A DNA stretch of 40,359 nt, taken from positions 1 through 40,359 of the forward strand of contig JAJRXF010000104.1 in assembly GCA_024276425.1 (NCBI GenBank), written 5' to 3'. Numbering within the stretch: position 1 is the first letter of the stretch; every line of letters begins with the position of its first letter. Both the position numbers and the translations under genes were made by a program. The notes below the pieces were generated by a model. The model was not told the DNA's origin and searched no databases. It worked only from the letters and a program-made list of their open reading frames with translations. This DNA comes from Actinomycetes bacterium. Its GTDB lineage: Bacteria > Actinomycetota > Acidimicrobiia > Acidimicrobiales > SZUA-35. Shown here piece by piece: positions 25,527 through 28,787 of this stretch.

Positions 25527-25952
25527 TTAGGCCACTTCGAGTGCTCCTAATAAGCGATCAACAAACTCTACCGAGCTGGGCTTGATCCGGTCGCGACGAA
25601 TAGTGGCTCCACCAATCACCTCACCCCCGCGTCGGGCCACTACACCGCTGAGCTTTTCCAAGGTCTTGCCTGCGTTAATGGCATAGGTGCAAAAGACGGC
25701 GGTTTTCTTGCCTTCAATGGCAGGAAGTTGGGCCAACCGGCCAACGCCACCCGGCCGCTGTCCAAGGAGGATCAGTCCATCGGTCCAGGTACCAATGACC
25801 ACGATGTCGGCGTCGGACAATGCCTGGAGGTCGACGGCCTTGGTCGAACAGGCAGTGGTTTGGATGCCAGCCTTGCTCATCTCCTCGGCAATAGCAAAAC
25901 CAGCCTTGGCGGTGTTACCCGTCAAACTCTCATAGATCACGATCCCCTTCAT
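25527..25952 (-). CDS. Flavodoxin
   Basis: From ATG 25952 the product is 141 residues, the size of a short-chain flavodoxin. It starts MKGIVIYESLTGNTAKAG, the FMN-phosphate loop, and continues with DADIVVIGTWTDGL and KKTAVFCTYAINAGKT, the second and third FMN-contacting loops. It should carry electrons in the cytosol. The frame runs upstream to 26189 but that part has no flavodoxin likeness and is antisense to the selenoprotein gene. The indolepyruvate oxidoreductase gene follows on the same strand, so it may be its redox partner. Only 33 bases separate it from the divergent selenoprotein gene. Confidence 0.88.
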   Translation of the reverse strand: MKGIVIYESLTGNTAKAGFAIAEEMSKAGIQTTACSTKAVDLQALSDADIVVIGTWTDGLILLGQRPGGVGRLAQLPAIEGKKTAVFCTYAINAGKTLEKLSGVVARRGGEVIGGATIRRDRIKPSSVEFVDRLLGALEVA

Positions 25953-25985
25953 GAACAGAGAATCTACACCGCTAAGGTGGATTCC

Positions 25986-26267
25986 ATGTCGGATCGTCGT
26001 CATCAGATCTCCATCACCTACTGCGTCCCCTGAGACTATTCTCATCGTGCCGTGAGCGCGACTACAGATTTGCTCAGCAACTACCAGCACGTGATTGACG
26101 CATTGACTCTGATCACCGGCTCCAAGGGCATCTTCGACGTGCGGGTCGACGGCGAGATCCTGTATTCCAAATCTGAGACTGGTCGACACGCCGAGCCCGG
26201 GGAAGTGCTAGCCCTCTTTCAAGATCTGGTCGGGCCGAACGTATCCATCTATGGCAGCGAGGACTAG
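25986..26267 (+). CDS. SelW/Rdx-family selenoprotein with Cys-x-x-Sec (in-frame TGA)
   Basis: Reading from ATG 25986, preceded by AGGTGG six bases upstream, the frame gives MSDRRHQISITYCVP, then TGA at 26031-26033, then DYSHRAVSATTDLLSNY and continues to TAG at 26265. With TGA read as selenocysteine the product is 93 residues, exactly a SelT/SelW/SelH (Rdx) domain: beta strand, redox motif Cys13-Val-Pro-Sec16, Arg of the following helix, LTLITGSKGIFDVRVDGEILYSK and TGRHAEPGEVL. The part after TGA alone (from GTG 26052) would lack the first strand and active site, so it cannot be the whole gene. These thioredoxin-fold proteins act as thiol redox proteins. Sec machinery is not in the window. 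Confidence 0.85.
26045..26061 (+). promoter_or_regulatory. Candidate bacterial SECIS hairpin
   Basis: TCGTG-CCGTGAG-CGCGA folds into a 5 bp stem (one G-U) with a seven-base loop containing GU. The loop begins 16 bases after the TGA, at the near edge of the usual 16-37 base window for SelB-binding elements. An alternative overlapping stem, CTCAT/GTGAG at 26041-26056, puts the loop slightly too close. The assignment is by eye and weak on its own; it gains weight from the selenoprotein reading. Confidence 0.4.
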
Positions 26268-26329: not shown

Positions 26330-26371
26330 GTTTCTGTCTTCTCTCCCCTTATTCTCTCGGCTCCTTGGTTG

Positions 26372-27232
26372 ATGAGTGACGATTTCGTTCCCCAACTCGC
26401 CGACACCATCCCGGTAGTCGATCCACTTGACCCCCGGATCGAGGTTTTCCAAGGACTACGTGATCATTCCCTGCGCATGCGCCGAGAACGCTGGGGAGAC
26501 ATGAAGGGAGTGTTTGTGGCTGAGGGCGATCGTGTGGTCGAGCGAGCCCTGCGAGCAGACTACGAACTGGTGTCCATCCTGATCGATGGCAAGCGCAAGA
26601 AGGCCCTGCCCGGAGTCATTCCAGTAGATGTTCCCGTGTATGCGGCAGCCCCGCAGGTCCTCGAGCGCATAACCGGATATCACCTTCACCGAGGTGCCCT
26701 AGCCTGCTTCCACCGACGGCCTGTCCCCAACCCCCGGGAAATTCTGGTTAACCAAAGAGTTCGGACCATCATTGTGGCCGAGGCCATCAACAACCCCACT
26801 AACATGGGCGTCATCCTGCGCTGTGGCGCTGCCCTCGGCGTCGACGCCTTCCTCCTCGACCCAAGCTGTTGCGATCCGCTTTACCGTCGCTGCGCCCGCG
26901 TCAGCATGGGTGAAGCCTTCGTCCTCCCATACGCCAGGCTCGAAGCGTTCCCATCCGGGATCGACATCATCAAAGAGTTCGGTTTCCGGACCTTGGCTCT
27001 CACTCCAGGAGTTGATGCCATCGATCTCGCCGACCTGGTTCTCAATCCAGACGAGCGGGTCGCCATCTTTCTCGGAGCCGAGGGCCCAGGACTGACCGTT
27101 GGCACGCTCAAGGCTGTCGAACAGCGAGTTCGAATCCCCATGTCTGGAGCTGTCGATTCGATCAATGTCGGCTCGGCGGCCGCTGTCACCTTTTATGGGG
27201 TGCAACAGGCTCGGCGAACCGCTGGAGGCTGA
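26372..27232 (+). CDS. SpoU/TrmH-family RNA 2'-O-methyltransferase
   Basis: The 286-residue product (ATG 26372; TTG 26369 precedes it) has the SpoU knot: motif 1 INNPTNMGVILRCGAALG, motif 2 FLGAEGPGL and motif 3 IPMSGAVDSINVGSAAAV, which form the trefoil-knot S-adenosylmethionine pocket. The N-terminal half (FVAEGDRVVERAL, GYHLHRGALACFHR) is the RNA-binding domain found in rRNA-type members. It should methylate a ribose 2'-oxygen in rRNA or tRNA; the target base is unknown. Its last 534 bases are overlapped on the other strand by the open frame of the PNPox/DUF2470 gene. Confidence 0.9.
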   Translation: MSDDFVPQLADTIPVVDPLDPRIEVFQGLRDHSLRMRRERWGDMKGVFVAEGDRVVERALRADYELVSILIDGKRKKALPGVIPVDVPVYAAAPQVLERITGYHLHRGALACFHRRPVPNPREILVNQRVRTIIVAEAINNPTNMGVILRCGAALGVDAFLLDPSCCDPLYRRCARVSMGEAFVLPYARLEAFPSGIDIIKEFGFRTLALTPGVDAIDLADLVLNPDERVAIFLGAEGPGLTVGTLKAVEQRVRIPMSGAVDSINVGSAAAVTFYGVQQARRTAGG

Positions 27233-27946
27233 AGGAGCAGCCCGGGCGGAGCGAAGGAGACCACCAACGGCCAAATGAACCTCCGATGGCGCCTCGAGCT
27301 GGCTGGAGAAGGGCAGACGCGTCATGCGAGTTCCACTGGGATCGGTAGCCTCGACCAGCAGGCCGTATCGATCGATCTGCATCAGTTTGGCTGTGGTAGC
27401 GAGCCAGCGTCCTCCGAGCGTCCGGGCCATCAGGACAAGGTCCTGACCAAGGCGATCGGCCACGGATTCCACCAGTCCTTCGGCCAGCTTGGCCAAAGGA
27501 TCAGGCTTTGCTCCGGCCAGATCTTCGATTGGCAACCAATGATCCTCACCCCAATCTCCAGTGAAACAAACCCGCAGCGGCACCAAGCGAAGCCATGAGT
27601 AATCAAGGGACTCCACCTGGTTTCGCAGCTGAGGGTGATTTTCCAAAAAGCGTTCCTGCAACTCCAATTGTTGGAGCCCGGGCACCGCTACCAAATCACC
27701 CTGAATCAACAGCCGGTCGCCAATGGTCATGCCAGCCCGTCCATCCTGACGAGCTCGGATGGTGTGCCTGGACAGATTCGACAGCACCGTTATGGGGGCC
27801 CCGGTTCCGTCATCGACGATAGGAACGACTCCCACAACGGGTCGACCATCCACGTCAAGGGTTGCGAGCGCGGCCGTTGGCGACGCTGCAAGCACAGTCC
27901 TAGCCCGTTCGGGAACGGTTGGTTCGGCACAGTGAAGATCATCCAC
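26699..27946 (-). CDS. PNPox-fold/DUF2470 (HugZ-like) protein with an antisense-overlapping tail
   Basis: From GTG 27946, residues about 10-150 match the split-barrel flavin/heme fold (ARTVLAASPTAALATLDVDG, PITVLSNLSRHTIRARQDGRA, DRLLIQGDLVAVPG) and about 165-240 the DUF2470 domain (LAEGLVESVADRLGQDL, QIDRYGLLVEA, EVHLAVGGLLRSAR). Such proteins bind FMN or heme; HugZ members degrade heme. The family ends near RSARAAPS, which corresponds to about 27215, just past the end of the methyltransferase gene. No stop occurs there, and the frame runs another 500-plus bases antisense to that gene, ending at 26699. The tail is low-similarity and may be untranslated if a small indel hides the true stop. 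The start is uncertain (TTG 27970, GTG 27895). Confidence 0.65.
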   Translation of the reverse strand: MDDLHCAEPTVPERARTVLAASPTAALATLDVDGRPVVGVVPIVDDGTGAPITVLSNLSRHTIRARQDGRAGMTIGDRLLIQGDLVAVPGLQQLELQERFLENHPQLRNQVESLDYSWLRLVPLRVCFTGDWGEDHWLPIEDLAGAKPDPLAKLAEGLVESVADRLGQDLVLMARTLGGRWLATTAKLMQIDRYGLLVEATDPSGTRMTRLPFSSQLEAPSEVHLAVGGLLRSARAAPSASSGSPSLLHPIKGDSGRRADIDRIDSSRHGDSNSLFDSLERANGQSWALGSEKDGDPLVWIENQVGEIDGINSWSESQGPETELFDDVDPGWERFEPGVWEDEGFTHADAGAATVKRIATAWVEEEGVDAEGSATAQDDAHVSGVVDGLGHNDGPNSLVNQNFPGVGDRPSVEAG

Positions 27947-27986
27947 TGCTACATGATCGACCCGGATCAACCTCGGCTTGAGAATC

Positions 27987-28787
27987 TTAGCTCGCCCAAA
28001 AAAGCTTGAGCCGATCGACAAAACGGTCGGGGTCAACCAGGTGCGGGTAGTGACCGTGATCGTCCCATACCTCCACGCTGGAGTTCCGGATAAACCCCGC
28101 TAACCAATCCGCGTAAGCCTCACCAGGGTCGACGCCAAATAGTGATAGGTAGGGCGTCTGCTGCCCGGCATACCCCGAGAGGGCCCCCTCGACGACTGCG
28201 GCAATCTCCTGGGCGGACATGGTAAACATCATCTCCCATACCCCAAGAACAACGTCTTGGTTAGCCCTTCGATTACCGGCCAGCCGATCACGTTCACCCG
28301 TAGAAAGCTTGTCCCCTTCCAGCTGGGCAAAAAGCCCTTCCAGTACCAGGGGGAAGGCATCGGGGTCCTTGAGATGGTCTTCTACCTCGACCAACTGCGC
28401 CTTGAACTCTCCGAGTTGTAGCGACTGGTCCACATTGGTCACTGATCGAACCGGGAGGACGGCACCGACCGCGGACACCACCGCACCGCCCAACGAATGC
28501 CCGACCAGATGTGGCCGCTCCAACCCGGCGGCCGTCGCCACCGTCACAACGTCTCCAGCCATTGCCTCCAAGTCATAACGATCCGCATTGGCGGATTGAC
28601 CGTGACCGCGCAAGTCCATCCAAAGGACCCGATGAGAACTCTCAAGTCGATCAATGATGGGCTGCCAATTGGCCCAGCACTCGGTAATTCCATGGACTAA
28701 CAGGACCGAGGCGCCGTCTGCAGCAGCACTCTGGCCCGCTTGGTCCCAATAGATTTTCGTGCCGTCACCGGCGGTAGCTTCGCTCAT
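27987..28787 (-). CDS. Alpha/beta hydrolase fold protein
   Basis: The product is 266 residues from ATG 28787 (ATG 28805 is possible). It shows LLVHGITECWANW (oxyanion loop), MDLRGHGQSAN, the nucleophile elbow LVGHSLGGAVVS and a terminal DHGHYPHLVDP that supplies the catalytic His. The catalytic Asp is probably in LFGVDPGEAY. The cap region (about 120-200) is helical and rich in acidic residues. The substrate is unknown; esterase, lipase or haloalkane-type chemistry cannot be separated by eye. The downstream PNPox-type gene begins about 40 bases later on the same strand. Confidence 0.85.
   Translation of the reverse strand: MSEATAGDGTKIYWDQAGQSAAADGASVLLVHGITECWANWQPIIDRLESSHRVLWMDLRGHGQSANADRYDLEAMAGDVVTVATAAGLERPHLVGHSLGGAVVSAVGAVLPVRSVTNVDQSLQLGEFKAQLVEVEDHLKDPDAFPLVLEGLFAQLEGDKLSTGERDRLAGNRRANQDVVLGVWEMMFTMSAQEIAAVVEGALSGYAGQQTPYLSLFGVDPGEAYADWLAGFIRNSSVEVWDDHGHYPHLVDPDRFVDRLKLFWAS

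Follow-up and report, generated by a model that had tools for sequence, protein, structure and literature searches.

The segment at positions 25986–26267 of the window (the whole 40,359-nucleotide stretch of DNA that was analyzed) is almost certainly a real selenoprotein gene of the Rdx/SelW family, with selenocysteine (Sec) predicted at residue 16. Among bacterial selenoproteins, the SelW-like CxxU family is an established one (PMC1794560, PMC2398784, PMC13188914), and the window gene is a further member of it. Recognizing it corrects the gene model, as standard annotation would split rdx/selW or drop it.

The rdx/selW Reading Frame

25986..26267, plus strand: rdx/selW gene, 93 residues with Sec as residue 16, stop codon TAG counted in
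26022..26033, plus strand: Cys-Val-Pro-Sec redox motif, TGC GTC CCC TGA, with the TGA at 26031–26033

From ATG 25986 to TAG 26265–26267, the frame has the in-frame TGA at 26031–26033 as its sole interruption. Reading this TGA as Sec gives 93 residues that include ITYCVPU, with U as residue 16. A sequence-only reading had proposed a 93-residue Rdx/SelW protein of this kind, and the Pfam Rdx profile bears out the proposal with a match that spans the TGA (1.6e-17, residues 7–78, profile positions 1–72 of 74). The Rdx profile score of 63.9 bits is above the curated cut-off of 22.6, and the TIGR02174 score of 44.8 bits is above the cut-off of 34.2. The CVPU motif occupies residues 13–16, after strand 1 (strand 6–13, helix 19–36), as in the Rdx/SelW family. 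The TGA is the second position of the motif, and the proposed placement of CxxU where the family has its redox CxxC/CxxU therefore holds.

About 70 TGAs in the 40-kb window pass a loose filter for motif and openness (a Cys, Ser, or Thr nearby). The motif and open flanks alone are thus a weak argument, and the case was therefore built on homology, conservation, and the Sec machinery. Conservation and homology raise TGA 26031–26033 above chance.

Conventional gene finding does split the domain, as had been claimed: the product of the late start at GTG 26052 covers only Rdx profile positions 21–72. It is very improbable that this short protein is the functional product and that the upstream part is noncoding. 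The 71-residue frame still matches part of Rdx, but its product would be without strand 1 and the CxxU motif, the codons upstream of GTG 26052 are conserved as protein, and the spacing of a conserved −10 box (described below) fits ATG 25986.

Conservation of the TGA Codon

A set of 61 relative genomes gave 32 Rdx matches in 31 genomes. Exactly one TGA, in the same column, is present in 32/32 of these matches, and SelA was found in all 31 of the Rdx-bearing relatives. One relative (G026) has two different Rdx genes, at C106:1752-1961 and C174:11245-11457, each with a TGA.

Across the class, Rdx was found in 155 of 395 genomes, with one TGA in every match but one among the matches listed. The exception (genome G063) is a Cys form with CTQC (RYCTQC), and SelA was not found in the genome that carries it. 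SelA is present in 143 of the 155 Rdx genomes versus 117 of the 240 without Rdx (Fisher test, p=4e-21, kinship ignored); the sequences are related, so this value and the shuffle values given below overstate independence. There are 11 genomes in the class set with a TGA-form Rdx and no detected SelA, all of them drafts that are 63–90% complete. Within the same class, genomes of ~1 Mb in one genus (g108; G064, G070, and others) have kept both SelA and the TGA-form Rdx, small as these genomes are. In the phylum sample, a stop-free Rdx form occurs in large genomes of two families (f91 and f96).

An independent named collection gave a similar picture at the redox column: TGA in 39 of 43 records, TGC in 3, TGT in 1, and no other codon. 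The near relatives in this collection are Acidimicrobiia, including Ilumatobacter, Candidatus Microthrix, and MedAcidi-G2B records. The alignment of homologues that had been suggested as a check was informative, every homologue read having either TGA or a Cys codon in the column. In addition, dN falls well below dS both upstream and downstream of the TGA (the upstream piece being 12 codons only).

These data bear on whether the TGA is an inactivating mutation (i.e., a pseudogene) or a Cys codon misread in sequencing. The draft assembly has 203 contigs and Cys homologues are known, yet this explanation deserves next to no credence, being already refuted by a TGA conserved in independent assemblies among the relatives, the class, and the named collection, with purifying selection persisting downstream of it.

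Going by the genomes compared, selenium appears to be used in SelW across an entire actinobacterial class that is widespread and largely uncultured. This may help to identify the bacterial sources of the SelW-like selenoproteins that abound in marine metagenomes; SelW-like is the most abundant selenoprotein family in the GOS marine data, where 427 Sec forms were counted alongside 56 Cys homologues (PMC2398784). A literature search of titles and abstracts, with incomplete coverage, found no paper describing a SelW selenoprotein for Acidimicrobiia.

Selenocysteine Machinery and Other Selenoproteins

The genome containing the window is 3.95 Mb and 96% complete. It had been proposed that the rest of the genome be searched for selA, selB, selD, and selC (tRNA-Sec), and all four are there: a tRNA-Sec with a UCA anticodon, a SelA match at 6e-100, a SelB match at 6e-78 that adjoins selA, and a SelD match at 1e-113. 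Other selenoproteins of the genome were sampled through family searches, and two further genes have an in-frame TGA.

G000:C2:16019-16936 (L020 about 2380-2400), minus strand: selD, one in-frame TGA, in GAGUGCK
G000:C59:18836-19843 (L130 1429-2517), minus strand: AhpD-related selenoprotein gene (NF041238), CFYUT with U as TGA

The TGA in selD was placed in GAGUGCK by reading the reverse strand by eye. Its U stands at the catalytic Cys/Sec position, and SelD of this genome is probably itself a selenoprotein. In the stretch that was folded, a hairpin 3′ of the selD TGA was no better than shuffles. In the AhpD-related gene, the TGA falls at the U of CFYUT, a motif that is part of the name of the family model (NF041238, AhpD_rel). 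With an in-frame TGA in each of rdx, selD, and the AhpD-related gene, the genome therefore has at least three selenoprotein genes.

An in-frame UGA alone cannot name the residue, and the codon might be read as some other residue (through suppression or an altered code), or the ribosome might simply read through it. The likelihood of this is minimal given that TGA ends 14 of the 31 window frames tallied, that the genome has the full Sec machinery, and that the homologue column alternates TGA with Cys codons only.

A Hairpin Downstream of the UGA

With UGA read as Sec, SelB and Sec-tRNA(Sec) would bind a hairpin in the message and selenocysteine would be put in at UGA codon 16.

26045..26061, plus strand: bSECIS-like hairpin, stem 26045–26050/26056–26061, loop CGUGA at 26051–26055

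The stem is UCGUGC/GCGCGA (5–6 bp). A small hairpin with a GU-containing loop had been noted at this place; the hairpin and its loop stand, and the spacing from the UGA to the loop is 17 nt instead of the 16 stated earlier. The bSECIS model has a loop of 3–9 nt with G in the first two positions, 16–37 nt after the UGA (PMC13188914). The window hairpin agrees with the model in its 5-nt loop, its G at loop position 2 (with U next to it), and its spacing.

The hairpin covaries beyond synonymous codon choice. Among 56 distinct sequences, 95.7% of the cells of the 5-bp stem pair versus 91.1% (sd 0.6) in synonymous-codon shuffles; with codons shuffled within columns, 0/2000 shuffles of the 56 sequences reached the observed pairing, and in a separate synonymous-codon shuffle test of pairing the figure was 0/500. 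At a conserved Arg codon (CGT/CGC), the wobble base tracks the base it pairs with: U occurs with A in 26 cases and C with G in 13, with three U–G pairs besides (p=2e-8). When the partner is shifted along, pairing falls in every register tried. All 56 sequences have G at loop position 2, which is partly forced by a conserved Val codon. Taken alone, the window sequence has modest fold stability (z of −2.1 for 21 nt and −1.2 for 44 nt), and single-sequence folding of the window hairpin is not convincing. An Rfam scan of the hairpin region gave no match.

The Start of the Gene

25973..25978, plus strand: TAAGGT, a probable −10 (TANNNT) element 7 nt before the ATG

The sequence-only reading had seen a good ribosome site upstream of the gene, a claim that the comparison does not support: TAAGGT reads better as a −10 box. 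A TANNNT ending 6–8 nt before the ATG is present in 26 of 30 relatives versus ~1% each by chance. SD-like motifs are scattered among the relatives at the same region, and a few more distant members have AGGAGG or GGAGG ahead of the start. Leaderless actinobacterial genes have a TANNNT −10 element ~12 bp before the start codon (PMC3160421), and a TANNNT close to the start is their published mark (PMC3160421, PMC3898074). The position of the rdx element is that of a leaderless gene. With a conserved −10 box 7 nt before the ATG, the rdx mRNA is therefore probably leaderless, and transcription would most likely begin at the ATG, from this box.

On balance, we lean toward a wider reading, that Acidimicrobiia are a nearly pure Sec-form SelW lineage with mostly leaderless mRNAs, in which Sec comes at about codon 10–16, right after initiation. 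If true, Sec insertion just past a leaderless start would be an uncharacterized setting for SelB-dependent recoding, and the lineage would allow Sec recoding to be tested in close proximity to a leaderless start. Among the literature hits listed, no title or abstract described a leaderless bacterial selenoprotein mRNA.

Structure, Proposed Function, and Known Relatives

An AlphaFold model of the rdx product has a pLDDT of 88.9. Its best PDB matches are SelW-related (2fa8, 2obk, and 3dex; TM about 0.8–0.9, E about 1e-8 to 1e-7), as expected of the thioredoxin-like SelW fold, and its matches to mouse SelW and thioredoxins are weaker than these. Family and fold suggest that the product is a small thioredoxin-like thiol/selenol oxidoreductase. 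In such a redox reaction, electrons would be carried by way of a reversible selenenylsulfide between Cys13 and Sec16.

The window gene shares its family, CxxU motif, Sec position, and small size with the bacterial SelW-like (SELENOW-like) proteins of PF10262 and TIGR02174. It differs in coming from the Acidimicrobiia, a lineage with an almost purely Sec form, and in its probable leaderless mRNA. SAV_2001 from Streptomyces avermitilis (3dex) and Atu0228 from Agrobacterium (2fa8) have the same fold, with ~27–35% identity by structural alignment, but are CxxC proteins with Cys where the window protein has Sec. Similarity to NCBIfam NF041051 (SelTWH_Campy) is strong, at 71.3 bits, but lies under the curated cut-off of 88 bits, which places the window protein outside that equivalog.

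Neighboring Genes

25527..25953, minus strand: flavodoxin-like gene, divergent, with its start codon 32 bp away from rdx
26369..27232, plus strand: SpoU-family methyltransferase gene, downstream of rdx

The flavodoxin gene is kept beside rdx in most of the window organism's family, and its product is a candidate redox partner in that family only. Flavodoxin as a general SelW partner was rejected, the pairing being absent in most other class members.

The SpoU-family gene is also a conserved neighbor within the family. On the minus strand lies the neighboring frame 26699–28036. In some relatives (L038, L040, L041, and L051), its first part sits upstream of rdx rather than downstream, and the rest of the frame matches only antisense to the SpoU gene. 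As judged from these alignments, a gene has been relocated locally, and the annotated frame is probably too long.
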